Of a DNA stretch of 64,000 nt, positions 30,329-62,439 are shown piece after piece. This stretch comes from Gordonia tangerina. Lineage in GTDB: Bacteria > Actinomycetota > Actinomycetes > Mycobacteriales > Mycobacteriaceae. The notes below the pieces were generated by a model. That model ran no database searches. It was not told the DNA's origin and was given only the letters and a program-made list of their open reading frames with translations. The translations under genes and the position numbers were made by a program. Every line of letters starts with the position of its first letter. Position 1 is the stretch's first letter. The DNA lies in NCBI RefSeq assembly GCF_021556435.1, contig NZ_JAKGCU010000013.1:62001-126000 (forward strand), in the 5' to 3' direction.

Positions 30329-30351
30329 TTAATCTTAAGGTATTAGATTAA
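30329..30351. promoter_or_regulatory. Regulon site A: TTAATCT-N9-AGATTAA
   Basis: Perfect 7-bp inverted arms in the divergent gap between the reductase gene (start 34 nt away) and the SDR gene (start 66 nt away). Core TCTTAAGGTATTAGA (30333-30347). Strongest member of the ten-site set. Confidence 0.7.
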
Positions 30352-30416
30352 TTGGATCAACCACGTCATCCGGCCCAAAGCCCCGTTACACCGGATGACC
30401 TGCATACGGAGGAATC

Positions 30417-31205
30417 ATGACCGCGCACCCACAGACACAGTCCGCGTCGATCCAGGACTTCTTCCGGCTCGACGGTCGGGTCGCGATCGTGACAGGTGCC
30501 GGCTCGGGACTCGGCGCCGGGATCGCCGTCGCGCTGGCCGAGTCGGGTGCCGACGTCGTCATCACCGGCCGACGACCCGATCCGCTGACGTCCGTCGCGG
30601 AGGACATCCGCCGACTCGGCCGTCACGCCCTGCCCGTGCCGACCGACGTGACCGACCCCGAGCAGTGCGACGCAAGCGTGCGCGCAACGATGAAGGAGTT
30701 CGGCCGGGTCGACGTCCTGGTCAACAATGCCGGCGTCACACATACGTCGCCCGCGACACGGGAACGCCCGGACGACTTCCGCTCGGTACTCGACGTGAAT
30801 CTGCTCGGCAGCTATTGGATGGCGCAGGCATGCGCGCGGGTGATGGAGCCCGGCTCCAGCATCGTGAACGTGGCCAGCATGCTCGGCCTGATCGCGTCGT
30901 CACTGCCCCAGGCTGCATACACCTCGAGCAAGGCCGGTGTCATTGGTCTGACGCGGGACCTGTCACAACAATGGTCGGGGCGTAAAGGGATTCGGGTCAA
31001 CTCGATCGCACCCGGATTCGTCGAGACCGACATGATCGCGCAGATGACCGATCAGACTCGCAGTGAGTTCCTCCGCGGCTGCCCCATGGGCCGAATGGGC
31101 ACCCAGCGCGAGATCGACGCCGCCGTGGTCTTTCTCGCGGGCCCGGGCGCCTCGTACATCACCGGATCGACGCTCGCCGTGGACGGCGGCACGTCGGGTC
31201 ACTGA
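30417..31205 (+). CDS. Short-chain dehydrogenase/reductase
   Basis: 262-residue classical SDR. The cofactor motif is T-G-A-G-S-G-L-G (about residues 26-33), with N-N-A-G-V near 98. The active site is the Ser in V-N-V-A-S-M plus Y-T-S-S-K. The end A-V-D-G-G-T-S-G-H is typical. GGAGG precedes the ATG. A basic G-R-R-P after the second strand suggests NADP preference. It probably oxidises a hydroxy group or hydroxyacyl-CoA within the island's pathway and shares regulatory site A with the reductase operon. Confidence 0.9.
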   Translation: MTAHPQTQSASIQDFFRLDGRVAIVTGAGSGLGAGIAVALAESGADVVITGRRPDPLTSVAEDIRRLGRHALPVPTDVTDPEQCDASVRATMKEFGRVDVLVNNAGVTHTSPATRERPDDFRSVLDVNLLGSYWMAQACARVMEPGSSIVNVASMLGLIASSLPQAAYTSSKAGVIGLTRDLSQQWSGRKGIRVNSIAPGFVETDMIAQMTDQTRSEFLRGCPMGRMGTQREIDAAVVFLAGPGASYITGSTLAVDGGTSGH

Positions 31206-31220
31206 GCGGCGCGCGTACGG

Positions 31221-32207
31221 TCACGCGAAAGCAGGTGGCGGATCACTGGTCTCACCGACCTGATAGCAGGAGTGCGCGTCCTCCTGCTCGAACCCCAGCA
31301 ACCGGCACATCCGCACGGCCGAGGCATCGTCGGGATCGATCCGCAACATCGAGACCTGGACACCGGCATCTTTCTGCCGCTCCATGGCCGCCACCAGCAA
31401 CACGCCGCCGAGGCCGCGGCCACGCGCGCCCGGGTCGAGGACGACGGCATGGATGGGCGCAGCACGGAGTTCCAGGTGGATTCGCTGATCAGTCGAATAC
31501 CAGACGAACCCGACGATCCGACCGGCGTCGTCACGCGCCTCGATCACCTGCCCCCCGCCCCGACCGACATCGGACTCGAGCCGGTCGCGTTGTGCGTCGG
31601 GAAGTGCCGCACGACCGAGGATGTCGACGACCGCGGCGTCCCCGCCGGCAAGCTCTCGGGGCTCTCCGACGACGAGGCCGTCGGGGATCTCGGGTCGGTC
31701 GATCGGCAGGGCAAACGGTCCGGTCAGATGCCGGACCACCGTCCACTGGCGACTGACCGCGGGAACATCGAAGCGTTTCGTGAGGCGCTCCGACGCCGGG
31801 TGGGTCGAGTATGCCCAGCACCGCAACGCCGTTGCACCCGAGCCGTCCCAGCCACGCACACCGCCGACGTCCAGTCCGATCTCTTCGACGAGCAACGTGG
31901 TGATGCCCCGGGAACGGTAGTCGGGATGAACCGCGTAGGACACCGTGCCGAGTCCTTCGTCGTCGACGAACAGGTGGAGGTAGGCGACGACGACCATCGG
32001 ACCGTCCTCCTGCGGACCCAGATCACGGCGGGCCTTGATCGCCAGGTGGCGGACGGTCCCGCTGCCGTCGTCGGCGACCGGGACGATCTCCGGGTCGATA
32101 TGGGAGAAGCCGGCTTCCTCGTCGTAGTCGGTCGCGGCGGCGACGAGTTCGAGGACTGCATCGAGGTCGTCGTCGGACAGCTTCGGACGCCACTCGTACG
32201 AGATCAT
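31221..32207 (-). CDS. Tandem GNAT acetyltransferase (MshD-like)
   Basis: 328-residue protein with two GNAT folds in tandem, the architecture of mycothiol synthase MshD. Acetyl-CoA loops are visible as Y-R-S-R-G-I-T-T in the first half and G-A-R-G-R-G-L-G-G in the second. It is too diverged and out of the mycothiol context to be called mshD. It lies convergent to the SDR gene (15 nt apart) and divergent from the acyl-CoA dehydrogenase, sharing the gap that holds site E. The acceptor is unknown. Confidence 0.75.
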   Translation of the reverse strand: MISYEWRPKLSDDDLDAVLELVAAATDYDEEAGFSHIDPEIVPVADDGSGTVRHLAIKARRDLGPQEDGPMVVVAYLHLFVDDEGLGTVSYAVHPDYRSRGITTLLVEEIGLDVGGVRGWDGSGATALRCWAYSTHPASERLTKRFDVPAVSRQWTVVRHLTGPFALPIDRPEIPDGLVVGEPRELAGGDAAVVDILGRAALPDAQRDRLESDVGRGGGQVIEARDDAGRIVGFVWYSTDQRIHLELRAAPIHAVVLDPGARGRGLGGVLLVAAMERQKDAGVQVSMLRIDPDDASAVRMCRLLGFEQEDAHSCYQVGETSDPPPAFA

Positions 32208-32288
32208 CGGTCGAACACTCCTGTCACAGCGAACACACCTATCGCTTTTCGGTATACACCCCGGCGCGGGGCTACGGGCCGGAACGGT

Positions 32289-32312
32289 TTAAACCTACAG
32301 CAGTTAGGTATA
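32289..32312. promoter_or_regulatory. Regulon site E before the acyl-CoA dehydrogenase gene
   Basis: TTAAAC, a 12-nt centre and GGTATA, with core CCTACAGCAGTTAGG (32294-32308). It ends 10 nt before the start codon, so bound protein would block the promoter or initiation directly. Confidence 0.6.
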
Positions 32313-32322
32313 GGATCTCCAC

Positions 32323-33474
32323 ATGCAGAGTGATCTCTTCGACGCCGACCACGAACTCTTCGGAGAATCGGTCCGCGGTTTCGTGACCAAGAACGTCGTA
32401 CCCAACCTCGAGAAATGGGATGCCGACCGCCTGATTGATCGGGAGACGTGGCGCGCTGCCGGCGCCCAGGGAATTCTCGGGCTCGCGGCGCCCGCAGAGT
32501 ACGGGGGCCCCGGCGAGACCGACTACCGATTCCGGGTCGTCATCCAGTCGGAGATCGCGAGAGTCGGCGCCTCCGCACTTCAGTCCGGGTTCTCCACCAA
32601 CGACGACATCGTCTTGAACTACCTTCTCCGGCACGCCGACGACGAGCAGAAACGCCGGTGGGTGCCCGGTTTCGTCACCGGCGAGACGATCGGCGCCATC
32701 GCGATGTCGGAACCGGGCGCGGGCAGTGACCTGCGCGCCGTCACCACCACGGCTCGACGTTCCGGTGACGATTGGGTCATCAACGGGTCGAAGACGTTCA
32801 TCACCAGCGGCATCCTCGCCGATCTGGTGATCGTCTTCGCGAAGACCGATCCCGAGGCCGGCTCCCGGGGTTTCAGCTTGTTCGTCGTTCAGGACGGGAT
32901 GCCCGGCTTCACCCGGGGCCGCAAGCTCGACAAGGTCGGCCTGCATGCGCAGGACACCGCGGAACTGTCGTTCGACGACGTCCGTGTCCCGATGGAGAAT
33001 CTGCTCGGCGAGGAAGGTGCGGGCTTCGCGTACCTCATGCAGAGCCTCCCGCTAGAACGCCTCGGCATCGGGATCGCCGCGCAGATGTCGGCGGAGGCAG
33101 TGCTCGGCTGGACGCTCGACTACGTCAAGGAGCGCACTGCGTTCGGGAAGCGGATCGGCGAGTTCCAGGGCCTCGGCTTCACCCTCGCCGACCTGCAGAC
33201 CTCCGTCGAGGTCTCCCGCGCATACCTCGACCGCTGCGTCCGCGAACACAACAAGGGAACTCTCACCGCAGTCGATGCGGCCAAGGCCAAGTTGTGGGCG
33301 ACCGAGCTGCAGGGCCGTGTCGTCGATGCCGGTGTGCAGTTGCATGGCGGATACGGCTACATGCTGGAGTACCCGGTGGCCAAGGCCTACATCGACTCTC
33401 GGATCCAACGAATCTACGGTGGCACCAACGAGATCATGAAAGAGATCATCCACCGGGATCTGATCAAGAAGTAG
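32323..33474 (+). CDS. Acyl-CoA dehydrogenase
   Basis: 383-residue flavoprotein of the acyl-CoA dehydrogenase family, which introduces the 2,3 double bond in an acyl-CoA. It shows A-M-S-E-P-G-A-G-S-D-L, W-V-I-N-G-S-K-T-F-I-T and E-R-T-A-F-G-K-R-I. The C-terminal R-I-Y-G-G-T-N-E-I carries the catalytic Glu position. The spacing between site E and the ATG leaves little room for a leader, so translation may be close to leaderless. It is convergent to the MFS gene (11-nt overlap at the ends) and belongs to the putative regulon. Confidence 0.93.
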   Translation: MQSDLFDADHELFGESVRGFVTKNVVPNLEKWDADRLIDRETWRAAGAQGILGLAAPAEYGGPGETDYRFRVVIQSEIARVGASALQSGFSTNDDIVLNYLLRHADDEQKRRWVPGFVTGETIGAIAMSEPGAGSDLRAVTTTARRSGDDWVINGSKTFITSGILADLVIVFAKTDPEAGSRGFSLFVVQDGMPGFTRGRKLDKVGLHAQDTAELSFDDVRVPMENLLGEEGAGFAYLMQSLPLERLGIGIAAQMSAEAVLGWTLDYVKERTAFGKRIGEFQGLGFTLADLQTSVEVSRAYLDRCVREHNKGTLTAVDAAKAKLWATELQGRVVDAGVQLHGGYGYMLEYPVAKAYIDSRIQRIYGGTNEIMKEIIHRDLIKK

Positions 33475-34912: not shown

Positions 34913-34939
34913 TTCGCCACCCCACTCGTGCCGCACACC

Positions 34940-34963
34940 TTAAACCTTATATCATTAGTTTAA
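34940..34963. promoter_or_regulatory. Regulon site B: TTAAAC-N12-GTTTAA
   Basis: Perfect 6-bp arms, core CCTTATATCATTAGT (34945-34959), in the MFS/alpha-beta hydrolase divergent gap, 27 nt and 36 nt from the two starts. Confidence 0.68.
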
Positions 34964-34999
34964 TCCGGCTACGACCGTCGCCGAGGACAGGAGAGGCAG

Positions 35000-35863: not shown

Positions 35864-38275
35864 CTAGCGGGTGGCAGCGACCTCGGTCGACGACGTATCG
35901 TCCGCACCGGGTTGCAGTACTCCCGAGCGCACCAGATCGTCGATCTCGTTATCGCCCAAACCGAGTAGGTCCGCAACGATCTCCCGTGTGTGTTGCCCGG
36001 CGAGTGGCGCCTGCCGTGCAGGCGGATCGGCGATGTCGTCGAAGACGGCCACGCGAGCGGATGCGGGCAGGTCGGCGAAGAGCAGATCGTGACCGATCGT
36101 CGTGAAGGCACCACGATGGGTGAGCTGCGGATCGGTCAGCAACTGCGGAAGCCGCAGCATCGCGCCGGCCGGCACGCCCACGGACTGAAGTGTCGCGGCG
36201 GCATCCTGCGGATCACGAGCGCTCAGCCAGGCCGCGACCGCGGCGTCCACCTCGGCGCGGTGTTCGAGGCGCTGCCCCCTGGTCGCGAGGCGGCCGTCAT
36301 CGGCAAGATCTGGTCTGTCGATGATGCCGCACAATGCTTTCCACTCATCGTCGTCGCGGACCGTGACGACACACCACTCGTCGTCACCGGCGCACGGGAA
36401 CACTCCGCTCGGGGCAGCGTACGGGTCGCTGTTGCCCGGCGCGGTGACCGTACCCGGGCGCAGTCCCTCGGTGACCAGTTGGACTCCGAGTTGAACCAGT
36501 GCCGTGTCCGCCTGGGCGACTTCGAGGTTCGTACCACGGCCGGTGTGTCGGCGATCGATCAGCGCGGCGAGCACAGCGATCGCCGCGACGTGGGCGGCGA
36601 TGTGATCGGGATAGACGGTCTGCCCATCGCAGAGCAACTCGGCGTCGTCGGGGTAGCGCCACAGCGCCGACACCCCGCACGACGCACGTACCAACGGACC
36701 GTAGCCGAGACGGGTGCGCCACGGACCTGTGCTGCCGAACGAACTCGACTCCGATACCACGATGCGGGGATTGATCTTCGCGAGACTCTCGTACGAGAAG
36801 CCCATCGACGCAAGTGTTCCCGGCTTGAAGTTGGCGAGGACGACGTCTGCGTCTGCGACCAGCCGACGGAACAGGTCCGCACCCTCGGGGCTACGCAGAT
36901 CGATGCCGAGACTGCGCTTGTTGCGATGTCCCCACGCGACCGAGGCGGCCAGCGCGGACCCCCGCTTTGACTGCCGGAGGCCGTCCGGAAAATCAGCGTT
37001 CTCGATCTTGATCACGTCGGCGCCGTAATCCGCGAACTGTCGACTCAGTTCTGCGCCGAACACGATCACGCCGAGATCGAGGACCCGCAGTCCGGCGAGC
37101 GGGGCCGCGGACCTGTCGCCTGAACCGACGACCGGGCGTCCGCGTGGCGCGATGTCGATGTCGTCGTGCTCGCCGAGCTGCGGTGCGCGCGTTCGTATGC
37201 CGGCACGCTCGCCTCCGATGCTGATGTAGCCGGAGGGAACCCGGGCATGCATGCCCGGGGCGATCTCGGTGTCGATCAACGATCCGGAGGCATCGAAGTG
37301 CTCGGTGGCGAGAACCTCCGTCAATGTGTGCACACCACCGACAGGTACCCCGCGGCGTGCGCCTTCGGCGACCAACTCGTCCTGTGTGTGCCTGGCGAAC
37401 AGTTCGGCGATCAGGGGATGCAGTGTGTCGGCGGCCGCGAAGCGGGCCGGGATGGTGTCGAACCTCGGATCGGCGAACGCCTCCGGCGAGCCGAGCCACT
37501 CGAACATCGCACGCCACTGCCGCTTGGCGAGCAGACAGATCCGCACGTGACCGTCCTTGCAGGCGAACACGGGGTAGAAGTTCGCTGCATCCGGCCGACC
37601 CCGCGGATAGTCCTCCGACCGTCCTGCGGCCGCGGAACCCTGCGTCCCGAATCCCGGGTCGAAGCCGTGGACGATCGCCTCGAACGCCGACAGATCCACC
37701 GTATCGCCATAACCGCTCACGACTTTTCGGTGATAGGCGAGGAGTGCCGCCCATGCGATGTGAGCGCCGACGGATTCCTCCACCAGACCCGCCGGCGGGA
37801 GGAGGGGCTCGACTCCGGGGGCACCGGACCGCGACAGCACCCCGGACATCGCGTAGAGCACCGGTTCGGTCGCCACCCAGTCGCGGTAGGGACCGGTCTG
37901 CCCGAAACCGCTGACCGATACCCACACCAGTCCGGGAACCAGGGACCGGAGGTCCTCGGCCCCGAGACCGTGATCGGCGAGCAGACCCGGTCGTTGCGAC
38001 TCGATCAGGATGTCCGATCGTTGCGCCAGTTCGCGCAACCGACTCCGGCCGGCCTCGTTGTCGAGGACCAGCGTGATACTGAGTTTGTTGGCATTACGCA
38101 GGGCGAACGGAACACTCACACCGTCGATCACCGGCTCGGCCGCGCGTGAGCGCGAGCCCACCGACGGCTCGATACGGATCACCTCGGCGCCGAGATCGGC
38201 CAGGTAGCGGCCCGCGGACTCACCGAGTCCCTCGGTGAGGTCGAGAACGCGCACACCGCGAAGTGGAAGGGTCAT
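35864..38275 (-). CDS. Fused tandem CaiB/BaiF CoA-transferase (two family III domains)
   Basis: 803-residue protein formed by two complete type III CoA-transferase domains. Half 1 starts at residue 1 (L-R-G-V-R-V-L-D-L-T-E-G...G-A-E-V-I-R-I-E-P). Half 2 starts at about 396 (L-A-G-L-R-V-L-D-L-G-V...G-A-D-V-I-K-I-E-N). Ordinary family members are about 400-residue interlocked dimers, so the fusion makes a built-in dimer. The active-site region differs: G-Y-G-D-T-V-D-L-S in half 1, G-R-G-T-N-L-E-V-A in half 2, so one site may be inactive. It is last in the operon beginning at 41725, and would transfer CoA between acids. Confidence 0.88.
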   Translation of the reverse strand: MTLPLRGVRVLDLTEGLGESAGRYLADLGAEVIRIEPSVGSRSRAAEPVIDGVSVPFALRNANKLSITLVLDNEAGRSRLRELAQRSDILIESQRPGLLADHGLGAEDLRSLVPGLVWVSVSGFGQTGPYRDWVATEPVLYAMSGVLSRSGAPGVEPLLPPAGLVEESVGAHIAWAALLAYHRKVVSGYGDTVDLSAFEAIVHGFDPGFGTQGSAAAGRSEDYPRGRPDAANFYPVFACKDGHVRICLLAKRQWRAMFEWLGSPEAFADPRFDTIPARFAAADTLHPLIAELFARHTQDELVAEGARRGVPVGGVHTLTEVLATEHFDASGSLIDTEIAPGMHARVPSGYISIGGERAGIRTRAPQLGEHDDIDIAPRGRPVVGSGDRSAAPLAGLRVLDLGVIVFGAELSRQFADYGADVIKIENADFPDGLRQSKRGSALAASVAWGHRNKRSLGIDLRSPEGADLFRRLVADADVVLANFKPGTLASMGFSYESLAKINPRIVVSESSSFGSTGPWRTRLGYGPLVRASCGVSALWRYPDDAELLCDGQTVYPDHIAAHVAAIAVLAALIDRRHTGRGTNLEVAQADTALVQLGVQLVTEGLRPGTVTAPGNSDPYAAPSGVFPCAGDDEWCVVTVRDDDEWKALCGIIDRPDLADDGRLATRGQRLEHRAEVDAAVAAWLSARDPQDAAATLQSVGVPAGAMLRLPQLLTDPQLTHRGAFTTIGHDLLFADLPASARVAVFDDIADPPARQAPLAGQHTREIVADLLGLGDNEIDDLVRSGVLQPGADDTSSTEVAATR

Positions 38276-38304
38276 CGCTGATCTCCGATCGAACGTGTTC
38301 TGTC

Positions 38305-39744
38305 TCAGCGGAAGTAGACGGACTTGGTGGCCTGGTAGGGCGCCAGGCCCTCGGGGCCGAGTTCGCGGCCGAGGCCGGATGCCTTGACACCACCGAACGG
38401 GGCGGCCAGATCGAGTGCGTAGTGATTCACGCCGACGGTTCCGCTCTGGATGCGATCGGCGATCGACAGGCCGCGCTCCTCATCGGTGGTCCACACCGTC
38501 CCTCCGAGCCCGTAATCCGAGTCGTTGGCGATGGCGACGGCCTCGTCGTCGTCGGCGTACGGGGTGATCGTCAGCACCGGACCGAAGATCTCCTCCTGCG
38601 CGATCCGGGCTCCGTTGTCGACACCCTCGAAGACGGTCGGAGCCACATACCATCCGGTGGCCTGGTCCTCGGGAGTGCCGCCACCGGTGGTGATCCGATG
38701 ACCTTCGGCGCGACCGGATTCGATGTAGCCGAGCACTCGATCCCGCTGGGCCCCGCTGACGAGTGGACCCACCTGGGTGGCTGTGTCCAGCGGATCACCG
38801 ATCCGCAGAGCGCGCACGGTGTCGGTGACTACGTCGACGACCTCGCCGTATCGACTGCGGGGGGCCAGGATTCGCGTGCTGGCATGGCAGGTCTGGCCGT
38901 TGTTCACCAGGGACACCCCGAGCAGGTTGGCGGCGAACACGTCCAGATCGGCGTCCTCTGCGACGATCGCGGCCGATTTGCCCCCGAGTTCGAGGGTGAC
39001 CGGACGTAGCAGTCGCCCGCAGACCTCGCCGATCGCCCGGCCCGCCGGCGTCGACCCGGTGAAGGCGACCTTGTCGACTCCGGGATGTTCGACGAGGTAT
39101 GCGCTGACCTCACGCCCAGCGGGCACGATGTTCAGAACGCCTGGCGGCAGGCCCGCCTCGACGGCTGCGTCGGCGAAGACGTAGGCGTCGAGCGCGGTTT
39201 CCGGAGCGGGTTTGAGGACGACCGTGCAGCCCGCGGCCAGGGCCGGCGCGACCTTCATCGCCGCAAGCGACTGCGGATAGTTCCACGGTGTGATGGCCGC
39301 GACGACACCGACCGCCTCACGTCGGACCACTGTGCGGCCGCCGAGGGCGCTGGGACGAACGTCGTCCGTCTCCTGCTTGCGGATCAGATCGGCGTAGTAC
39401 CGCAGCATGAGCCCCGGCGCATAGCCGTTCACCCCGACCGACAACGCGATCGGCATGCCGTTCTCCCGACTCGTCAGGGCCGCGGTCTCCTTGGCGCGAA
39501 CCTTCAGCGCCGCGGCGAAACGCTCGAGATGATCGGCGCGTTCGCCGGCGGACAGCGCGCGCCAGGCCGGCAGCGCTCGGCGTGCGGCCGAGACGGCGGC
39601 GTCGACATCGGCCTGCTGCGCGAGTGCGGCGGTGCCGAGGACCTTCTCCGTCGCCGCCTCGACCACGTCGTAGGTGACGTCGCCGGCCGGGTCGACCCAC
39701 TGGCCGTCGGTGAACAGGCTGCGCCGATCCAGGGTTGTGTCCAT
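38305..39744 (-). CDS. Aldehyde dehydrogenase
   Basis: 479-residue NAD(P)-dependent aldehyde dehydrogenase. It shows T-P-W-N-Y-P, K-P-A-P-E-T, F-T-G-S-T-P-A-G, the general-base Glu in L-E-L-G-G-K-S and the nucleophile Cys in N-N-G-Q-T-C-H. E-E-I-F-G-P-V-L and the C-terminal G-V-K-A-S-G-L-G-R-E are normal. It follows the Cys-less thiolase homologue by 45 nt in the same operon. A natural reading is oxidation of the aldehyde that such a retro-aldolase would release. Confidence 0.92.
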   Translation of the reverse strand: MDTTLDRRSLFTDGQWVDPAGDVTYDVVEAATEKVLGTAALAQQADVDAAVSAARRALPAWRALSAGERADHLERFAAALKVRAKETAALTSRENGMPIALSVGVNGYAPGLMLRYYADLIRKQETDDVRPSALGGRTVVRREAVGVVAAITPWNYPQSLAAMKVAPALAAGCTVVLKPAPETALDAYVFADAAVEAGLPPGVLNIVPAGREVSAYLVEHPGVDKVAFTGSTPAGRAIGEVCGRLLRPVTLELGGKSAAIVAEDADLDVFAANLLGVSLVNNGQTCHASTRILAPRSRYGEVVDVVTDTVRALRIGDPLDTATQVGPLVSGAQRDRVLGYIESGRAEGHRITTGGGTPEDQATGWYVAPTVFEGVDNGARIAQEEIFGPVLTITPYADDDEAVAIANDSDYGLGGTVWTTDEERGLSIADRIQSGTVGVNHYALDLAAPFGGVKASGLGRELGPEGLAPYQATKSVYFR

Positions 39745-39789
39745 GTCGATCCTTCGCGTCGTATCGATCCTTGTCGGGCGAGTTGCGGG

Positions 39790-40974
39790 TCAGAGAGTGT
39801 CGTGATGTCCGAAGAGCGTCGAGCTCACCAGTGGTGCCATCGGTCCTCCGATGAACAACGATGTCCTCGCTCCCTCAACGGGATTCGTGGACGTTCCACG
39901 GATCTGCCGCACGGCCTCGACGGCCAGACCCGCACCGTTGACGAACGAGTCGGCAATATTGCCGCCACTGGTGTTGACGGGCAGCTTGCCGATCCCCGCT
40001 GTCAGGTTGTCGACAGTGAGCACGCTGCCCGCTGCGGGGCCGGTCGGCGCCAGGCCGTGATCGATGAGCGCGGCGACCGCCGGACCGCTGAAGTTCTCGT
40101 AGACCTGCACGACATCGACGTCGTCGGGGCCGAGACCGGCTGCGGCCCAGAGACGATCGGCGACCCCGGGCCGTTCCGGTCGACCCGCGAAACCCGCACT
40201 GGTGTAGAGATCGTCATTGTCGATGATCGACGAATAGCCCCCAGGCGCCCCTTGCGCACCGGCAAGCACATACGCGGCATCGGACCGCAGGGCTTTGGCC
40301 CGCTCGGCAGAGACCAGCACCAGCGCCACCGCGCCGTCGTTCTCCCTGGAGCAGTCGAACAGGTGAAACGGCTCCGCGATCATCCGCGACGCATCGTAGG
40401 TCTCCTCGTCGAGCGGCTTGCCGTACCCGGCGGCGGTCGGATTGTTCTGTGCGTGCCGGTATGCGGCGAGCACCAACGCCCGCATGGCTTCTCGGGGCAC
40501 ACCGTCGTGCTCGAGCAGCCGCTGCGTGCGCAGCGCACACACCTGCGCGGGTGACCCGATGCCGTGCGCGAGATAGTGCGAACCGTAGAAGTACTTGGCG
40601 TAGCCGAGACGTCCGGTGTCGTCCTGCGACATCGAGCGGTACACGACGACGCACTCTGCCTGCCCGGCCGCGATCGCGACCGCGGCGTTGTTGATCGCCG
40701 CCGCTACGGTGCCACCGCCACCGCCCCACATCATGTTCGACCACCGCACGTCGTGCACGCCGAGCGCGCCCCCGATGGTGGCACCGTCGTGCCCGCCGCC
40801 GGCATAGGAGACGAAACCGTCGAGCTCGCGAGGCGAGATCCCGGCATCCGTGCAGGCCGAGACGATCGCCTCCAGCGTCATGCGCAGCTCGCCGTGCGGC
40901 GCCTCGCCACGTTTGTAATGCAGGTCGGATACACCGACGACCGCGGAGGTCCCCCGCAACGCGATTGCGCTCAT
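39790..40974 (-). CDS. Thiolase-superfamily protein lacking the nucleophilic Cys (Ltp2-type aldolase candidate)
   Basis: 394-residue thiolase-fold protein. Where a thiolase has its nucleophilic Cys, this one reads M-M-W-G-G-G-G-G (81-88). The usual G-H-P loop is replaced (S-G-G-N-I-A-D-S-F-V-N-G) and the final C-x-G is G-G-P-M-A. It therefore cannot work as an ordinary thiolase. In steroid catabolism, such proteins (Ltp2 and relatives) with a DUF35 partner are retro-aldolases acting on beta-hydroxyacyl-CoA. Here a DUF35 protein lies just upstream with a 4-nt overlap, and an aldehyde dehydrogenase follows. Function as an aldolase is inference. Confidence 0.82.
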   Translation of the reverse strand: MSAIALRGTSAVVGVSDLHYKRGEAPHGELRMTLEAIVSACTDAGISPRELDGFVSYAGGGHDGATIGGALGVHDVRWSNMMWGGGGGTVAAAINNAAVAIAAGQAECVVVYRSMSQDDTGRLGYAKYFYGSHYLAHGIGSPAQVCALRTQRLLEHDGVPREAMRALVLAAYRHAQNNPTAAGYGKPLDEETYDASRMIAEPFHLFDCSRENDGAVALVLVSAERAKALRSDAAYVLAGAQGAPGGYSSIIDNDDLYTSAGFAGRPERPGVADRLWAAAGLGPDDVDVVQVYENFSGPAVAALIDHGLAPTGPAAGSVLTVDNLTAGIGKLPVNTSGGNIADSFVNGAGLAVEAVRQIRGTSTNPVEGARTSLFIGGPMAPLVSSTLFGHHDTL

Positions 40975-41414
40975 GACTGCGCCCCTTCGCGTCGGCGCCA
41001 CCGCAGCAGCGGCCATGTCGCGCCCTCGTCGAGTTCGATGTGTCCGACGACCTGCTCACCGATCCGCACATCGGTGTCGTCGCCGGTCAGAATGCCGAGC
41101 ACGCGTCGGTTGTCCGCTCCGGGCAGTTCGACGAGGACCGTCACGTACGGCAGCCGATCGGCGAGTTCGGCGATGAATGGGGTGTGGCTACGCGCCCAGC
41201 TGTAGACCGTGCCCACTGCTTCCACCGCTTCCCATCCGGGATCGAAGGTGTGGCAGGTGGCACAGATCCACTGTGGACCCCAGATCCATCGAGCGCAGCT
41301 CCCGCACCGCTGCAGGCGGAGCTCACCGGCGAGCAGACCGTCCCAGTACTCCCGGTCGAGCCCGTCCGCGGCAGGCCCCCACGGGAGGTCGCGCACGTCG
41401 GTGTCGGCGGTCAT
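40971..41414 (-). CDS. DUF35 Zn-ribbon/OB-fold protein, partner of the thiolase-like protein
   Basis: 147-residue protein with the DUF35 layout. An N-terminal helix (L-D-R-E-Y-W-D-G-L-L-A-G-E-L-R-L-Q) leads to a zinc ribbon C-x-x-C...C-x-x-C (C-G-S-C and C-A-T-C near residues 37-54), then an OB fold (V-G-T-V-Y-S-W-A, V-T-V-L-V-E-L, G-E-Q-V-V-G-H). These proteins bind CoA substrates beside thiolase-fold partners. Both ends overlap their neighbours by 4 nt, so it is translated in a tightly coupled trio. Confidence 0.9.
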   Translation of the reverse strand: MTADTDVRDLPWGPAADGLDREYWDGLLAGELRLQRCGSCARWIWGPQWICATCHTFDPGWEAVEAVGTVYSWARSHTPFIAELADRLPYVTVLVELPGADNRRVLGILTGDDTDVRIGEQVVGHIELDEGATWPLLRWRRREGAQS

Positions 41415-41725
41415 GCCGTCGCTCCGGACACTGGGAAGTTCTCCAGCGCCGCGGCCTTCCACTCTCCGTCGTGCAGTTCCCAGATCGATCGCAACCCGAT
41501 CACGCCGTCTGCGGTGTCGTAGATCGTCTCGCCGACCTGTCGCTCACCCTCGAGCCGCACGTCCTTGATCTCGAACCCGTTCACCGCACCGCGCGGCACG
41601 GTGACCCCTTCGAACACGGCGGGGATGTTCTCCTGCACCATGTCGGCGATCGCCGCCTTCATGTCCCCCGCCACGACATGCCCCACGTGACGCTCATACA
41701 GCGTGCGGAAGTCTTCTGCAGCCAT
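41411..41725 (-). CDS. NTF2-like fold protein
   Basis: 104-residue protein of the NTF2/SnoaL fold (F-R-T-L-Y-E-R-H-V-G-H-V-V-A-G-D near the start, V-N-G-F-E-I-K-D-V-R mid-way, W-E-L-H-D-G-E-W-K-A near the end). AGGAGAATCG precedes ATG 41725. It is the first gene of the five-gene operon (NTF2, DUF35, thiolase-like, ALDH, CaiB fusion). It could be a small isomerase or hydratase or a structural subunit; nothing decides this. Confidence 0.8.
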   Translation of the reverse strand: MAAEDFRTLYERHVGHVVAGDMKAAIADMVQENIPAVFEGVTVPRGAVNGFEIKDVRLEGERQVGETIYDTADGVIGLRSIWELHDGEWKAAALENFPVSGATA

Positions 41726-41786
41726 TCGATTCTCCTTGATCCACCGGCGCCGTCGGCGCACCCCGACGCAGCGCGTCGACTCACCA

Positions 41787-41808
41787 TTAACCTTAAGCCT
41801 TTAGATAT
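41787..41808. promoter_or_regulatory. Regulon site C before the aldolase-type operon
   Basis: TTAACC, centre, GATAT, with core CCTTAAGCCTTTAGA (41791-41805), 61 nt upstream of the 41725 start on the minus strand. Confidence 0.6.
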
Positions 41809-41862
41809 TGGGGAGTCAACGGGCGCCCGCGACCGGCAACGCGGCCACCGTTGAGCACCGGC

Positions 41863-43431: not shown

Positions 43432-43454
43432 CTAGACTAATGGCTTTAGATTAA
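43432..43454. promoter_or_regulatory. Regulon site D in the 43359/43456 gap
   Basis: Core ACTAATGGCTTTAGA (43436-43450) followed by TTAA. It lies 72 nt upstream of the thiolase-like gene and ends 1 nt before the GTG of the small gene on the other strand. Confidence 0.55.
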
Positions 43455-43737: not shown

Positions 43738-43769
43738 CGCTCGGCAACGTGCCGCGTTTCGACCAAAAA

Positions 43770-43784
43770 TCTACGCACAGTAGG
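43770..43784. promoter_or_regulatory. Regulon site J before the secreted lipase gene
   Basis: TCTACGCACAGTAGG, dyad CTAC-GCACA-GTAG, 53 nt before the ATG at 43838. It has an A-run on its left like site H. It is a weaker member of the set. Confidence 0.45.
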
Positions 43785-43837
43785 TAGTGTGATCGTCCTG
43801 ACAGCAACATGACCTCCTCTCGGAACCGAGGACCCGC

Positions 43838-55006: not shown

Positions 55007-55030
55007 TCAATCTACTGGTGTTAGTTTTAC
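55007..55030. promoter_or_regulatory. Regulon site I before the frameshifted SDR gene
   Basis: Core TCTACTGGTGTTAGT (55011-55025), left flank TCAA and right flank TTTA, 68 nt before the ATG at 55099. Close to site F in its left half and site B in its right half. Confidence 0.5.
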
Positions 55031-55098
55031 TGCTTGTGAGTGGTGTCACACTCCGATGCCCCCGTGTCCAGAAGAGGCCCGGCGAGAAAGGAACCGAC

Positions 55099-55921
55099 AT
55101 GCAGAGACTCGACGGCAAGGTCGTCTTCATCACGGGCGTGGCCCGCGGACAGGGACGGTCGCACGCCATCCGGATGGCAGAGGAGTGCGTCCATCATCGG
55201 GCTCGACAACTGCGATCAGATCCCGACCGTGTTCTACCCGATGGCCACCCGAGAAGATCTCGCCGAAACTGAACGACTCGTGAAGGCAGCCGGCGGCCAG
55301 ATCGTCACGTCGGTCGGCGATGTACGCAACCGCGACGACATCCGACGCACCCTCGATCTGGGCACCGAACAGTTCGGCCGCCTCGACGTCGTCATCGCCA
55401 ACGCCGGGATCATGCCGGTGATCGGCCCGGGCGAGCAGTCGCAGGCATGGCACGATGCCGTCGATGTGATGCTCACCGGGGTCTGGAACGTCCTCGACAT
55501 CGCCGCACCGCGGCTCGTCACGCAGGGCGAAGGCGGCTCGATCATCATCACCAGTTCGGCTGCCGGCCTGACGAGTATAGGGCTCAACACCTTTGCGGGA
55601 CAGGCGGGATACTCAGCATCCAAACACGGAGTCGTCGGCCTGATGCGACTGTTCTCCAAGCAGTTGGCAACAGAATCGATCCGCGTCAACACCATCCACC
55701 CGACCGGGGTCAACACCCCCATGGTGGCCAATGCCGAGTACGGCGAGTTCGTGAACTCCCATCCGGAGGTCGCGAACGACGAGGCATACAAGAACCCGAT
55801 GCCGGTCGAACTGATCGAGGCGGTCGACGTGAGCAACGCGATGGTGTTCCTGGCCTCGGACGAGGCCCGCTACATCACCGGCGTCACCTTGCCCGTCGAC
55901 GCGGGCTACAACAACCGCTGA
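55099..55921 (+). pseudogene. Mycofactocin-type short-chain dehydrogenase, frameshifted near 55186
   Basis: The reading from ATG 55099 gives a perfect SDR start (L-D-G-K-V-V-F-I-T-G-V-A-R-G-Q-G-R-S-H-A) and then leaves frame after M-A-E-E at 55185. From 55187 the next frame continues correctly (A-S-I-I-G-L-D...Y-P-M-A-T-R-E-D-L-A) to the catalytic Y-S-A-S-K-H and the end at 55921. The G-R-S-H-A and Y-P-M-A-T-R-E-D-L motifs mark the mycofactocin-coupled SDR group (carveol dehydrogenase type). Restoring two bases (a Gly codon) at 55186 would give about 275 residues. It could be a real inactivating mutation or a sequencing error. Confidence 0.8.
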
Positions 55922-56636: not shown

Positions 56637-56667
56637 GCGTTTCATCGAAAAATGATACAAGAAACGC
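56637..56667. promoter_or_regulatory. Inverted repeat GCGTTTC-N17-GAAACGC before the TetR gene
   Basis: Perfect 7-bp arms spanning the ribosome-site side of the promoter, with a TATCAT box on the minus strand between them. Likely autoregulatory. Confidence 0.45.
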
Positions 56668-56768: not shown

Positions 56769-58289
56769 TCAGCGCACCTTGCTGAATCGGGCGTCGACGT
56801 CCTTGTATTCATCGCGGATCATCGTCTTGGCGATCTTGCCGGAGGGCAGACGCGGGAGCGGATCCTGGCGGATCACCACATATCGTGGGACCTTGAAGTC
56901 GGCGAGGACTTTCTCACAGTGGGCGACGATCGTGTCGGCGTCGAGGTCCTTCGAGACGGTGACGATGGCGGCGGGGGTCTCGCCGAATCGGTCGTCGTGC
57001 GCAGCGATCACCGACACCTCGGCGACGCCGTCGATCGCGCCGATGGCGATCTCCAGCTCGACCGGGGAGATGTTGATGCCGCCCGAGATGATCAAGTCCT
57101 TGAGACGATCGACGAACTTCACCCTCCCCTCGGGGTCGCTGACGCCGAGATCCCCGCTGTGCAACCAACCGTCGCGTATTGCCTGTGATGTCGATTGCGG
57201 ATCGTTCCAGTAACCGGGTGTCACGCCCGGCCCGCGGACGACGAGCTCGCCCTCCTCGCCCGGCGCCGCAGGCTCTCCGTTCTCGGTGAACACCTTCACC
57301 TCGGTGAAGATCGAGCCCGTGCCGCATCGGTCCGGGAACTCCAGCGCTTCGTCACGGATCGTCGCGGTCGCCACTCCACCCGCTTCGGTCATGCCGTAGA
57401 TCTGGCGGAGTAGAACGCCCTTGTCGGCCCATCGTTTGAGGAGTTGTCCTGGTACAGCAGCGCCGCCGACGATTGCCGTCTTGAGCGAACTGAGGTCGGC
57501 CTCGGCGAATTCCGGTGCGCGCGAGATCGCCTCGAAGATGAGCGGCACCCCGAAGATCGCCTTGACCGCATGCTTCTCCAGCAACGTCACTGCGTTGGAC
57601 GGATTGAGTTCGGGTTCGACGATCAGCGTTCCCCCGAGAACAGTGGTGATCAGGAGCCCGTAGACGAGGCCCGGAGTGAACGCCAACGGGAGTACGAGCA
57701 GCGTCGTCGTCCCCGGCCGGAACCCCTCCTCGGTGAGGGTGTTCTCCAGCACGATCGACAGCAGCGTGCGGTTGGTGAGGATCACGCCCTTCGACAGCCC
57801 CGTCGATCCACTCGTGAACAGGACCGTGGTCGGTTCATCTGGCTCACGATCGACGCGGAAGTCGTCTGCCCCACCTGATCGGAGTCCGTCGAGCTCCGCG
57901 TAGGAGATGACCGCGAACTCCTCTCCGATGGCAGCGGTGTCCTCGGCGAGCTGTTCGAATCCCGGAGCCGCGATCACCACCGAGATCCCCGCGTCGTCGG
58001 CGATCTTCCGCAGCTCGGCCGGCTTGTACCGGCTGTTCAACGGCACGAGAACGGCACCGGACTTGAGCACACCGAGCGACGCGACCGGCCACTCGAGCGA
58101 ATTGGGACCCAGCACGCCGACCCGATCCCCCTCGGCGACACCGCGTTCCTCGACGAGGAGTCGGGCCACCCGGCTACTCCAGTCCCTCAGATCCCGGTAG
58201 GTGAGCGAGGATTCGGAGAACACCACCGCGTCGGTGTCCCCCTTGGTGCGGGCCCACCAGTCCAGGGCGGCTCCGATCGTTGCGGTCAT
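56769..58289 (-). CDS. AMP-dependent acyl-CoA ligase (FadD-like)
   Basis: 506-residue adenylate-forming ligase. It has the P-loop-like T-S-G-S-T-G-L-S-K-G, Y-G-M-T-E-A-G, S-G-D-L-G, the hinge D-R-L-K-D-L-I-I-S-G-G-I-N-I and the catalytic Lys in P-S-G-K-I-A-K. AAGGAAG precedes the ATG. It would activate the imported or oxidised acid to its CoA ester, the entry to the island's CoA-dependent steps. It stands alone with site G upstream and a strong terminator downstream. Confidence 0.92.
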   Translation of the reverse strand: MTATIGAALDWWARTKGDTDAVVFSESSLTYRDLRDWSSRVARLLVEERGVAEGDRVGVLGPNSLEWPVASLGVLKSGAVLVPLNSRYKPAELRKIADDAGISVVIAAPGFEQLAEDTAAIGEEFAVISYAELDGLRSGGADDFRVDREPDEPTTVLFTSGSTGLSKGVILTNRTLLSIVLENTLTEEGFRPGTTTLLVLPLAFTPGLVYGLLITTVLGGTLIVEPELNPSNAVTLLEKHAVKAIFGVPLIFEAISRAPEFAEADLSSLKTAIVGGAAVPGQLLKRWADKGVLLRQIYGMTEAGGVATATIRDEALEFPDRCGTGSIFTEVKVFTENGEPAAPGEEGELVVRGPGVTPGYWNDPQSTSQAIRDGWLHSGDLGVSDPEGRVKFVDRLKDLIISGGINISPVELEIAIGAIDGVAEVSVIAAHDDRFGETPAAIVTVSKDLDADTIVAHCEKVLADFKVPRYVVIRQDPLPRLPSGKIAKTMIRDEYKDVDARFSKVR

Positions 58290-58352
58290 CGTTCTTCCTT
58301 CATCTGGTGTCTGGCGTGACAGTTGGTGTAGTCAGGTGTGGTGGGGCCGCCA

Positions 58353-58367
58353 CCTAACGCAATTAGG
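58353..58367. promoter_or_regulatory. Regulon site G: CCTAA-CGCAA-TTAGG
   Basis: A 15-bp element with perfect 5-bp arms, 63 nt upstream of the acyl-CoA ligase start. It lacks the TTAA left flank of other sites but has ATAATT on its right. Confidence 0.6.
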
Positions 58368-58423
58368 ATAATTCGGACAGCGTCGACGAGTGGGCGGTTT
58401 CGCCGAACCCGTCGGTATCACGT

Positions 58424-59605
58424 TCAGCCCACCTGGGCGCGTCCGTTCGCGACGAGTTTCTTGATCTCTCTGCGGAACACCTGGTTGGCGATCTCGTTGC
58501 GGCCGAGCAACATGTCGCCGGCGTCCGCACTACCCATGCCGCGCTGGGAGTCCCGCAGAAGAGGGAAGTCCTCGTTGTGCAGCACCGCGAGGAGGATCTC
58601 CCAGTTCTTGTTCCAGAGCCGCTCCCACCGCTCCTGCGCCATCCCGCTGTCCTCGACCGTCGGAACGATCAGCCGTTGCTCCATCCGGGACTTCGTCGGG
58701 TCGGTGGGATGTGGCCGGAACGTCAACAGCTGGAAGTGATCCGGCTGCCGGAGGAGGGTGCTGTTGGGCAGTAGGAAGTGCGTTTCGGTGACGTACTTGT
58801 CGAGGTTCTCGTCACCGGGGTCCTCCTCGAGGAACCGATCGATCGACTTGCGCGGTGCGATGAACCGGCAGTGCCGACCGAAGTCCTCGAACGCCATCAC
58901 GTTCGTGTGGATGATCTTGCCGGCGGTGTTGGGATGCGCGTACTGGATGTGATAGCCGTCCAGGAAGGCGTCCTGCATGATCTTCCAGTTGGTGGGCTCG
59001 TCGAAGCCGCCAGCCCGGAAACACACCGACTTGTCGAGTTCGTACTCGGCGAGGATTCCGTCGATCTCCGGTCCGAGCCACGCGGCGACATCGATGTCCT
59101 CCTTGGCGTTGTCGACGACCCAGATGAAGCCGTGTCGCTCCTCGGTCGGGATCTCGATCAGCCCGTGGTCGCCGCGGTCAACGTCACCGAATGTGGAGTC
59201 GCGGGTGATGGTTCGCAGCGACCCGTCCGGGTCGTAGGACCAGCGGTGGTAGCCGCACGAGAAGATGCGGCAACGGCCCTTCTCGCTCTCCTCCAGCAGT
59301 GCACCCCGGTGGCGGCAAAGGTTCACGAACGACTTGACCCCGCCGTCCTTCTGACGGACCACGATGATGTTGTTGCGCGGCATCGTCACGGTGATGAAGT
59401 CGTTGGCTTTCGCCAGCTCCGACGAGTGGGCGACGATCGACGGGACCCGACCGAAGACGTGATCGCGTTCGTCCTTGGCCAGTACCGGGTCGGTGAACTC
59501 GCCCGGCTCGAAGGGAATGATCTCGTCGAACTTGTCCGTCGTCTCGTGTCGTAGGAGTTCGAGCGCTCGACGGATCCGATCCTGACGCGGGAGCGAGGTG
59601 GTCAT
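58424..59605 (-). CDS. Rieske non-heme iron oxygenase, alpha-subunit type
   Basis: 393-residue aromatic-ring-hydroxylating-dioxygenase-type protein. The Rieske [2Fe-2S] ligands are Cys 97, His 99, Cys 117 and His 120 (C-R-H...C-G-Y-H). The mononuclear iron site is D-A-F-L-D-G-Y-H-I-Q-Y-A-H (His 219, His 224, with a bridging Asp just before). ATG 59605 follows GGAGG. It needs a reductase, and the PDR-type protein at 29324 is the only obvious candidate. Site F lies 69 nt upstream. It could hydroxylate a ring or demethylate; the substrate is unknown. Confidence 0.9.
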   Translation of the reverse strand: MTTSLPRQDRIRRALELLRHETTDKFDEIIPFEPGEFTDPVLAKDERDHVFGRVPSIVAHSSELAKANDFITVTMPRNNIIVVRQKDGGVKSFVNLCRHRGALLEESEKGRCRIFSCGYHRWSYDPDGSLRTITRDSTFGDVDRGDHGLIEIPTEERHGFIWVVDNAKEDIDVAAWLGPEIDGILAEYELDKSVCFRAGGFDEPTNWKIMQDAFLDGYHIQYAHPNTAGKIIHTNVMAFEDFGRHCRFIAPRKSIDRFLEEDPGDENLDKYVTETHFLLPNSTLLRQPDHFQLLTFRPHPTDPTKSRMEQRLIVPTVEDSGMAQERWERLWNKNWEILLAVLHNEDFPLLRDSQRGMGSADAGDMLLGRNEIANQVFRREIKKLVANGRAQVG

Positions 59606-59673
59606 GGGTCCTCCGAAAGGCTGTCGTTGGCCGGGTCTGTGAGTACCGGACCCGATCAGGTCCAGCACTGCCA

Positions 59674-59697
59674 TTAATCTACAGCTATAAGGTTTAA
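59674..59697. promoter_or_regulatory. Regulon site F: TTAATC-N12-GTTTAA before the Rieske gene
   Basis: Core TCTACAGCTATAAGG (59678-59692), 68 nt upstream of the start at 59605. Confidence 0.62.
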
Positions 59698-59703
59698 GAG
59701 GCA

Positions 59704-59747
59704 ACGACGGCCAGCCGATGACGATGAGAGGGAAGGCTGGCCGTCGT
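59704..59747. terminator. 13-bp perfect hairpin after the P450 gene
   Basis: ACGACGGCCAGCC (59704-59716) pairs with 59735-59747. It ends the SDR-ferredoxin-P450 operon just before site F, so the Rieske gene is a separate unit. Confidence 0.7.
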
Positions 59748-59760
59748 CACTTCCCCCTGG

Positions 59761-60990: not shown

Positions 60991-61223
60991 GACTGATCCT
61001 CCGGGGCTGTGGTGATGGGCTGGAGCGCCAGGGCACGCTCGGGGCAGAGGGACACGGCCTCATTGGCCGGTCCGACCTCGTCTGATCCGAGCGCATGATC
61101 GGGCACGATCGGGTCGCCCTGGTCGTCGCAGTCGATCAGGTCCGGTGCGGCGCCGTAACACAATCCGTGCCCGGCGCACGCGACCCGATCCACGGTCAGA
61201 ATGCTCTCCTGCGTGGATGACAT
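60987..61223 (-). CDS. Ferredoxin ([3Fe-4S]/[4Fe-4S] type) for the P450
   Basis: 78-residue electron carrier. The cluster motif is C-A-G-H-G-L-C...C-P with Cys 16, His 19 in the variable position, Cys 22 and Cys 60-Pro. A His at that position is known in mycobacterial P450 ferredoxins. It overlaps the P450 start (ATGA), the usual redox pairing. A ferredoxin reductase is not adjacent. Confidence 0.92.
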   Translation of the reverse strand: MSSTQESILTVDRVACAGHGLCYGAAPDLIDCDDQGDPIVPDHALGSDEVGPANEAVSLCPERALALQPITTAPEDQS

Positions 61224-61228
61224 GGCGT

Positions 61229-62098
61229 TCAGGCGTTGGGATTCTTTTGGTCGAGATCCTCCGCGAACCACATACCGACGCGCGAGAGGGTTCCGCCATC
61301 CGTCGAGCCGATGGTGGCGCCGGTGATGTATGCGGAGTCGTCCGAGGCCAGGAAGAGCGCGACCTTGGCATTGTCGACCAGTGACGGCGGACGGTTGAGC
61401 TTGAGCGGGATCGGCGAGACGAACGGATCCCACGGGCCGGAGACCTCTTCGTAGGACTGGCCGACGACGGGCGAACCGGCGGGCATCAGGAAGTTCGGCG
61501 ACATACCGTGAGTCGGCGCCAGCGCGTTGACGCGGATACCGTATGGGCCGAGGTCCAGGCTCAGGCCGCGAACGAAACCGTTGACGCCCGCCTTGGTCGC
61601 GCTGTAGAGCGCGATGTCGTGGTACGCGACGAGCGACGCCGCCGATGACGTCGCGAGGATCGTGCCGCCACCATTGGCCTTCAGTGCCGGCACAGCGGCC
61701 TGCGCGGTGTAGATCACGCCGCTGAGATTGATCCCCAACACGTGCTGCCAGTCGTCCTCGGTCAGGTCCTCGAAGAGGACCGACTCTCCACCCGCAACAG
61801 TGGGAACACCTCCGCGAGAGACGATTCCCGCGTTGGCCCAAGCGATGTCGAGCTTGCCGAAGTGCTTGACCGTCTCGTCCACAGCGGAGACGATCTGCGA
61901 CTTCTGCGCCACGTCGGCCGTGATGGCGATGGCCTCACCACCCTGCTGCTCGACGAGCTTCGCGGTCTGTTCTGCCCGGTCACCGTCGATGTCCACGACG
62001 GCGATCCGCGCGCCCTCGGACGAGAAGAGTTGGGACGATTGACGTCCCAGGCCCGAACCGGCACCGGTGATCAGGGCTACCTTGCCTTCAAGCTTCAT
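61229..62098 (-). CDS. Short-chain dehydrogenase/reductase
   Basis: 289-residue SDR. It has the cofactor motif T-G-A-G-S-G-L-G-R (about 11-19), with V-V-D-I-D giving an NAD-type Asp. N-A-G-I-V follows, and the active site is S-S-A-A-S...Y-S-A-T-K. It begins at ATG 62098. Five nucleotides separate its stop from the ferredoxin start, so it leads an SDR-ferredoxin-P450 operon and probably oxidises a hydroxyl made or used by the P450. Confidence 0.9.
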   Translation of the reverse strand: MKLEGKVALITGAGSGLGRQSSQLFSSEGARIAVVDIDGDRAEQTAKLVEQQGGEAIAITADVAQKSQIVSAVDETVKHFGKLDIAWANAGIVSRGGVPTVAGGESVLFEDLTEDDWQHVLGINLSGVIYTAQAAVPALKANGGGTILATSSAASLVAYHDIALYSATKAGVNGFVRGLSLDLGPYGIRVNALAPTHGMSPNFLMPAGSPVVGQSYEEVSGPWDPFVSPIPLKLNRPPSLVDNAKVALFLASDDSAYITGATIGSTDGGTLSRVGMWFAEDLDQKNPNA

Positions 62099-62232
62099 GT
62101 GATCGGATTCCTTGCTCTCGAATTGCCCGGGCACTCGCCGATCTGGGCCGCCGACGATTGCGCCTTGAGTGGGCTCCACTGGGATGCTCGACCGGCACAT
62201 TCGGAAAATGTGACGTCGACCACCTTGCAGCC

Positions 62233-62274
62233 ACCGTAAGACTTCTTACATGAAACGTCAAGCGATATTTGTCA
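62233..62274 (-). promoter_or_regulatory. Predicted SDR-ferredoxin-P450 promoter with mce-shared element and dyad
   Basis: On the minus strand TTGACG (62261-62256), a 17-nt spacer and a weak TACGGT (62238-62233). The 20-nt block 62255-62274 is 17 of 20 identical to 54799-54818. GTAAGA-CT-TCTTAC (62236-62249) is a perfect dyad over the -10 side and could hold a repressor. Confidence 0.58.
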
Positions 62275-62424
62275 GCACCTCGGTAACCCAACAACCGGAT
62301 GTCGGGCAACAGATCTCGAGCCCTGGAGCGCGACATCGCGGACACAGACCACACGCAGGCTGAGCCGACGATGCGTCCACGGGCAACCGGCCGGACGCGG
62401 AGATAGACCACCGCGACGCGAAAA

Positions 62425-62439
62425 ACTACTCTTGCTAGG
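62425..62439. promoter_or_regulatory. Regulon site H before the TetR gene at 62472
   Basis: ACTACTCTTGCTAGG after an A-run and followed by TAC, 32 nt before the start codon. It keeps the CT and AG positions common to the ten sites, so the TetR product may control the set and itself. Weaker dyad than A, B or G. Confidence 0.42.

Follow-up and report, generated by a model that had tools for sequence, protein, structure and literature searches.

A repeated 23-bp palindrome as the predicted operator of a TetR-family repressor in a catabolic island of Gordonia tangerina

The island and its repeated element

A 64,000-nucleotide stretch of the genome of Gordonia tangerina, a soil actinobacterium (contig NZ_JAKGCU010000013.1; hereafter the window), carries a catabolic island whose promoter gaps hold copies of one palindromic element, here called sites A–J, and a gene for a TetR-family protein, P0001, that we propose as their repressor (Table 1). 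The island encodes a Rieske oxygenase, a FAD/2Fe-2S reductase, a P450 (CYP), three SDRs (one clearly mycofactocin-type), an acyl-coenzyme A (CoA) ligase, an acyl-CoA dehydrogenase (ACAD), two enoyl-CoA hydratase (ECH)-like proteins, an Ltp2/ChsH2-like aldolase pair, a thiolase-like protein, CaiB, aldehyde dehydrogenases (ALDHs), lipase-like and hydrolase proteins, an MFS transporter and an mce operon.

The initial annotation had recognized ten cores here, with CT at core positions 2–3 and AG at 13–14 in every copy, and we confirm all ten where they were placed. The complete element is wider than the dyad described then, being a palindrome of 23 bp near TWAAYCTAATGNCATTAGRTTWA. A matrix built from the ten sites and scored over 72.6 kb separates seven strong sites (scores 26–32) from three weak ones, F, H and J (around 18); in leave-one-out scoring the ten sites rank 2–11 over the same 72.6 kb, and simulated intergenic-like DNA of 2 Mb gave one match of at least 17.9. 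By rough gene calls, the gaps of the window total about 4.9 kb. Of the three sites earlier described as weak, H and J are so, but site I is the third strongest, and F has to be added to the weak group. Two further corrections concern sites E and I. Site E precedes a doubtful 93-aa open reading frame (ORF) by 13 nt and the thiolase-like gene by 84 nt. Site I lies within the longest Rieske ORF (58424–59704), whose start is a TTG upstream of the site; the Rieske start is probably the ATG at 59605, which has the better ribosome site (GGAGGA before it), and the centre of site I would then be 80 nt upstream.

How specific is the pattern? With the core alone, HCTWMNNNNNNWAGD, the window has 25 strand matches, compared with 2.6 expected and 7 at most in dinucleotide shuffles. 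These are the ten sites and five further places (7491, 53636, 60591, 62617 and 63180), all of the CTTC...AAG type, without outer arms and inside predicted genes. The longer pattern TTAANCTWANNNNNTWAGNTTAA, allowed up to three mismatches, matches six times in the window and never in 100 dinucleotide shuffles. Over the whole genome (5,288,639 bases, or 5.29 Mb, in 66 contigs), searched by patterns, it finds seven sites, all within C4:92329-126739, compared with two for the reversed control; the seventh is new and lies 0.7 kb beyond the window end. For a third pattern, HCTWMNNNNNNWAGDNTWA, the genome holds 12 strand matches, of which 11 fall on eight of the ten sites and one lies elsewhere (reversed control, 17). 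The weak sites F and J escape the genome-wide patterns. The proposed check that the best matches should be confined to promoter gaps of the island was passed by patterns genome-wide and by the matrix over 72.6 kb. In this genome the mce operon, the CYP/SDR unit and the second tetR gene lack a strong site nearby; the nearest scored sites are 394 nt from the mce operon and 232 nt from the CYP/SDR unit.

These counts bear on whether the likeness is an artefact of AT-rich promoter gaps and selection by eye, as might be argued from the five coding matches of the loose core and from the weakness of F, H and J. For the set as a whole this explanation is refuted and has next to no probability left: shuffled sequences reach at most 7 core matches against 25, and none against six for the 23-bp dyad, and the leave-one-out ranks, the genome-wide confinement and the recurrence in relatives described below all contradict chance. 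Single weak sites, F and H, could still have arisen by chance.

Table 1. Sites and genes of the catabolic island in window coordinates. Scores are matrix scores.
Feature	Coordinates	Strand	Context	Score or basis
Site A	30329..30351		between reductase (29324-30295 -) and SDR (30417-31205 +)	32.4, perfect dyad match
Degenerate 12th site	32234..32256		38 nt before GNAT gene (31221-32207 -)	13.0, rank 12 of 72.6 kb
Site B	32290..32312		between GNAT and acyl-CoA dehydrogenase (32323-33474 +)	26.6
Site C	34941..34963		between MFS transporter and alpha/beta hydrolase	31.4
Site D	41787..41809		before operon 41761-35864; TTGACT adjoins	28.1
Site E	43432..43454		before thiolase-like gene TLP1 (41863-43359 -)	26.1
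Site F	43766..43788		before lipase-like gene (43838-44779 +)	18.5, weak
Site G	55007..55029		before mycofactocin-type SDR (55040-55921 +)	28.4
Site H	58349..58371		before acyl-CoA ligase (56769-58289 -)	18.0, weak
Site I	59674..59696		before Rieske oxygenase (probable start 59605 -)	30.0
Site J	62421..62443		40 nt before tetR gene at 62472	17.9, weak
11th site	centre 64728 (extended coordinates, past window)		87 nt before aldehyde dehydrogenase gene	19.7
Reductase operon: FAD/2Fe-2S reductase, two enoyl-CoA hydratase-like proteins	27653..30295	-		Pfam
Acyl-CoA dehydrogenase	32323..33474	+		Pfam
Aldolase operon: 116-aa ORF, DUF35/ChsH2-like OB protein, Ltp2-like aldolase, ALDH, double CaiB	35864..41761	-		Pfam
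Thiolase-like protein type 1	41863..43359	-		PF18313; NF006103 above cut-off
Mycofactocin-type SDR	55040..55921	+		NF009467 above cut-off; TIGR03971 E 6e-87, just below cut-off
P0002, second TetR protein	55992-56624		inside island
Acyl-CoA ligase	56769..58289	-		PF00501
Rieske oxygenase alpha subunit	58424..59605	-		PF00355, PF00848
P0001, TetR-family protein, proposed repressor	62472..63119	+		PF00440, PF02909
Aldehyde dehydrogenase	L001:1145-2739 (63145 to beyond window end)		site before orthologue in 8/15 relatives

Recurrence in related genomes

The 730 kb of stretches that we scored come from 15 relatives, out of 22 other genomes in which P0001 is present at 1e-30, and cover six genus codes. 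These stretches were picked for carrying the TetR protein or pattern matches, a choice that in itself enriches them for sites; the comparison of operon-leading with operon-internal genes is less affected. An orthologue was defined as the top match in each genome with no less than 50% identity; genes lying 260 nt or less from the end of a stretch were dropped, and the Rieske start was shifted by 99 nt.

In these stretches, 137 sites score at least 14, compared with a mean of 11.8 and a maximum of 71 for 100 column-permuted matrices, and at a score of 26 there are 55 sites compared with 0.01. Most of them (102/137) lie close to an island orthologue, no farther from its start than 300 nt upstream or 60 nt downstream. 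A site precedes the operon-leading orthologues of the reductase (RED) in 13/15 relatives, the SDR beside it (SDR1) in 13/13, the 116-aa ORF (X116) in 13/14, the Rieske oxygenase in 14/14 and GNAT in 8/10. Of the 13 RED sites, 7 are at a similar distance from the start codon (45–47 nt), and seven of the ten relatives have a site 41–45 nt upstream of GNAT. Coverage is intermediate for ALDH2 (8/15), TLP1 (7/13), ECH2 (6/11), the mycofactocin-type SDR (SDRM, 5/11) and the hydrolase (HYD, 4/13), and further counts are 2/14 for SDR3 and 1/1 for the lipase, the sole lipase orthologue examined, where the site F counterpart is centred 10 nt inside the aligned start. The position of site B between GNAT and the acyl-CoA dehydrogenase is kept in one relative (G129), and the counterpart of weak site H before the acyl-CoA ligase (FADD) is strong (30.5) in another (G164).

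By comparison, operon-internal genes in the relatives have no site: ECH1 and CYP in 0/13 each, and CaiB, ALDH1, the aldolase (LTP) and DUF35 in 0/14 each. Nor was one found before the second TetR gene (0/13), X93 (0/4), ALDH3 (0/1) or the mce genes (0 of 2 or 3 each). The genes are arranged differently from genome to genome, yet the sites mostly remain with the unit leaders. Paralogues outside the orthologue count can differ: a second CYP copy has a site 241 nt upstream in two genomes (G186 and G123), and in two loci (L044 and L045) ALDH1 and CaiB homologues that apparently head units of their own are preceded by sites. Several mycobacterial loci have sites before SDR3, and a Nocardioides locus has one before ACAD. 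That the sites form one regulon, as the initial annotation supposed, is supported by this recurrence before orthologous operon leaders rather than internal genes, and by tracking with the TetR gene at 62472.

Nearby sites accompany P0001 homologues in Aldersonia, Nocardia, Mycolicibacterium, Rhodococcus and Nocardioides. The TetR homologue of Rhodococcus erythropolis is followed, 1.5 kb farther on, by two sites with which no island orthologue was matched. Among the actinobacterial loci L033–L053, 20/21 have a match of at least 16, the exception (L041) being a 5.6-kb contig. The gammaproteobacterial loci L054–L074 match P0001 in the helix-turn-helix only; matrix matches of at least 16 in 17/21 of them were set aside because these loci are presumed to be AT-rich, while the matrix was built for GC-rich DNA.

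Two candidate TetR proteins

P0001 at E 1e-30 or better is present in 23 of 201 family genomes, its closest named relatives being those of Gordonia soli (88%) and G. polyisoprenivorans (87%). At least three copies of TWAANCTWANNNNNTWAGNTTWA (up to two mismatches) occur in 19/23 genomes with P0001 and in 2/178 without it (Fisher p 9e-21, uncorrected for kinship), the two latter being G035 (control 13 against 9) and G065; the reversed control reaches three copies in 2/23 genomes with P0001.

The same sites could instead be operators of P0002, whose gene lies inside the island and which co-occurs with it almost as tightly as P0001 does: it is present in 19/201 genomes, 18 of which also have P0001, and with 18 of 19 genomes in common the co-occurrence counts alone do not separate the two proteins. 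What separates them is five genomes (two Rhodococcus, one Nocardioides and two mycobacterial) that keep a P0001 homologue and nearby sites with no P0002 match at 1e-20, which favours the TetR protein at 62472 over that at 55992, in line with the preference first expressed. In addition, no site stands before P0002's own gene in any of 13 relatives, and the P0002 promoter has a different conserved element in six Gordonia genomes. Control by P0002 is accordingly an unlikely account of the sites. The element in question, GTNTCNTGTATC (minus strand, 56654–56665), lies just before the second tetR gene and differs from the regulon dyad; it is possibly a promoter or P0002's own operator.

From sequence comparison, then, the sites are very probably the operators of one TetR-family repressor encoded at 62472–63119, its binding being predicted. 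Site J, before this gene, is a putative autoregulation site; weak dyads (13.0–16.4) lie 30–44 nt before tetR in G129, G117, G192 and G164, and stronger sites 139–168 nt before it in L038, L040 and L052.

DNA recognition by P0001

P0001 scores 39.3 bits against the TetR_N helix-turn-helix family PF00440 (gathering score, 24) and 27.1 against the C-terminal domain family PF02909 (21), placing it in the TetR fold. Its structure model has a predicted local distance difference test (pLDDT) score of 85.5, and the best PDB matches of this model are TetR(D) structures, including the operator complex 1qpi, at a template-modelling (TM) score of about 0.7. The best NCBIfam family is tetracycline repressor TetR (E 8e-25); at 87.8 bits P0001 falls below the equivalog cut-off of 265. 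P0001 shares the fold of TetR(D). Its predicted operator has 23 bp, against 15 bp for tetO, and the repeated sites precede catabolic genes.

In TetR, Arg28 takes G and Gln38 takes A, and the tetO half-site has TAG at +4 to +6, as does the motif here. According to the published account, the Arg28 and Gln38 side chains are the only ones to hydrogen-bond bases, at G+2 and A+3, and Tyr42 touches T+4 (PMC7102968). The P0001 residues aligned to Arg28, Gln38 and Tyr42 are Pro33, Ala43 and Tyr47, so by alignment the Arg28 and Gln38 contacts are absent from P0001. A logo from 117 relatives' sites, themselves picked by the matrix, has in the inner half-site G at 23% at +2, T at 76% at +3, T at 86% at +4, A at 90% at +5 and G at 100% at +6, and in the outer arm T at 95% at +8 and 79% at +9. 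The motif thus has no preference for G at +2 and favours T at +3. Together, logo and aligned residues indicate a core that keeps TetR-like geometry, differs at the two lost contacts and extends outwards. In the N-terminal arm, M1, R3, P4, P7, L8 and R11 are invariant in 27 sequences, which suggests that the arm of P0001 reads the outer operator bases.

Three loci (L027, L028 and L032) carry P0001 paralogues (50–55%) with Thr for Ala at the TetR Gln38 position, and two of these paralogues are near the same island.

Promoter layout

With sites oriented to their genes, 61 of 105 gene–site pairs (90 distinct sites) have a −35-like hexamer (TTG or TTTAC) that starts 18–21 nt ahead of the dyad centre, compared with 2.1% of 2540 shifted windows. 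On the opposite side it occurs in 16/105, 12 of them SDR1 pairs, whose sites are mostly common to the reductase or ECH2 unit. It is frequent at the reductase (14/14), Rieske (17/18), 116-aa ORF (13/14) and GNAT (7/10) genes and lower at TLP1 (3/8), SDRM (2/6), FADD (1/4) and TetR (0/2). In 84/105 pairs the right half of the dyad contains a −10-like hexamer, TANNNT, which is itself part of the motif. At the units with the −35-like hexamer this layout would place bound protein over the spacer and −10, which points to repression by polymerase exclusion.

Alternatively, the dyads might bind an activator or an alternative sigma factor. The similar start-codon distance across genomes, seen at the RED sites, and the −10-like hexamer inside the dyad would suit such a role. 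A sigma factor does not need a symmetric 23-bp palindrome, however, and a separate −35-like box just upstream at the reductase, Rieske and aldolase units leaves the dyad in the spacer and −10, where repressors act; we regard a positive regulator as improbable, a shade more so than control by P0002.

Comparison with known systems

KstR is a TetR-family repressor of cholesterol catabolism whose palindromic operator overlaps a putative −10 and is repeated before many lipid-catabolic genes, with conservation out to Rhodococcus and Nocardia (PMC1995591, PMC3388012). As with KstR, and as in systems of the KstR/BkaR type, one palindromic motif is repeated before several catabolic units and conserved in relatives. 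The KstR motif is TnnAACnnGTTnnA, of 14 bp, whereas the Gordonia core is CTWA-N5-TWAG within 23 bp; the consensus of the 117 relatives' sites is a different palindrome, and the gene sets differ.

BkaR is a TetR-type repressor with a 24-bp palindrome and nearby branched-chain keto-acid genes (PMC3920632), and here too a TetR-type repressor is proposed to act on nearby catabolic genes through a similarly long palindrome. The BkaR core is GTTA(N)T(N4)A(N)TAAC, and the promoter of BkaR itself holds two copies of the motif, whereas the Gordonia site before tetR is weak. Mce3R, a TetR-family repressor tied to actinobacterial lipid genes (PMC11667970), is described there as a double-TetR protein on a non-palindrome, whereas P0001 is a single 215-aa TetR protein and the mce operon has no nearby site. 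The mycobacterial motif TAC-N6-GTA, which stands before fatty-acid genes (PMC3388012), was ruled out as the element here, the Gordonia core being CTA/TAG.

Among the open-licence literature matches listed, titles and abstract openings gave no account of this motif or regulon.

Discussion

The sites, their confinement to the island, their conservation, their tracking with P0001 and the promoter layout at some units most likely represent a TetR-family repressor regulon that is akin to those of KstR and BkaR and so far uncharacterised.

A number of observations weigh against this interpretation. The near-equal co-occurrence of P0002 has been given above. Two genomes with distant P0001 homologues (G183 and G081, 54–60% identical) have no sites. 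Before the proposed regulator itself, site J is weak, and only 1/15 relatives passes the threshold within 250 nt. The relatives are not independent of each other, 35 of their 137 sites are near no scored orthologue, and some units are patchy, with a site in 3/15 relatives for FADD, 2/9 for MFS and 1/14 for ACAD. Finally, the −35 rule, set after the alignment was viewed, is satisfied in only 4/15 pairs in Gordonia tangerina (reductase, 116-aa ORF, SDRM and Rieske) and in none at ALDH2 (0/5) or HYD (0/3).

We infer binding, repression, a ligand and a role for the arm as follows. A P0001 dimer would bind the 23-bp palindrome, its two recognition helices reading the CTW/WAG cores at ±4 to ±6, like the tetracycline repressor on tetO, with the outer TTWA arms probably read by the conserved N-terminal arm. 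The dyad of the best promoters fills the −35/−10 spacer and holds the −10 box, and the bound repressor would exclude RNA polymerase. A ligand, probably the pathway substrate or a CoA-ester intermediate of the island, would release the repressor and induce the units together, so that the island would be kept off until its food is present.

As to what that food may be, the P450 has its nearest matches in camphor-type P450s and entries named CYP125MRCA, the Ltp2-like aldolase matches the lipid-transfer protein structure 6ok1 (E 2e-49), and no ring-cleavage dioxygenase was found among 43 protein queries scanned with Pfam. Judged by its protein families, the island fits a pathway in which a hydrophobic alicyclic or steroid-like compound, possibly a steroid side chain or an alicyclic terpenoid, is oxidized, activated with CoA and shortened by a retro-aldol step. 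Separately, a perfect dyad, TTCAGA-N16-TCTGAA, at 54902–54929 between the mce operon and the mycofactocin-type SDR gene was not found in the relatives' stretches and is possibly an operator of another regulator.

In its broadest form, which we consider an even bet, the proposal is that a branch of the tetracycline-repressor subfamily acts as master repressor of a modular catabolic island, with sites in six actinobacterial genera. This branch would have kept tetO-like core geometry, given up the Arg28/Gln38 readout and acquired recognition of the outer arms by means of its N-terminal arm (MARPSKPLISR), which is near-invariant, and an operator placed in the −35/−10 spacer of the main units would let shuffled operons remain co-regulated. 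The paired change, of contact residues in TetR and of bases in the operator, can be tested directly. For this widespread, apparently undescribed catabolic island, with its P450, Rieske oxygenase, mycofactocin-type SDR and Ltp2-like aldolase, the operator is now well defined and a candidate regulator is named. Regulon membership hints at the gene content of the pathway, and ligand screening with the repressor is a route to the substrate.

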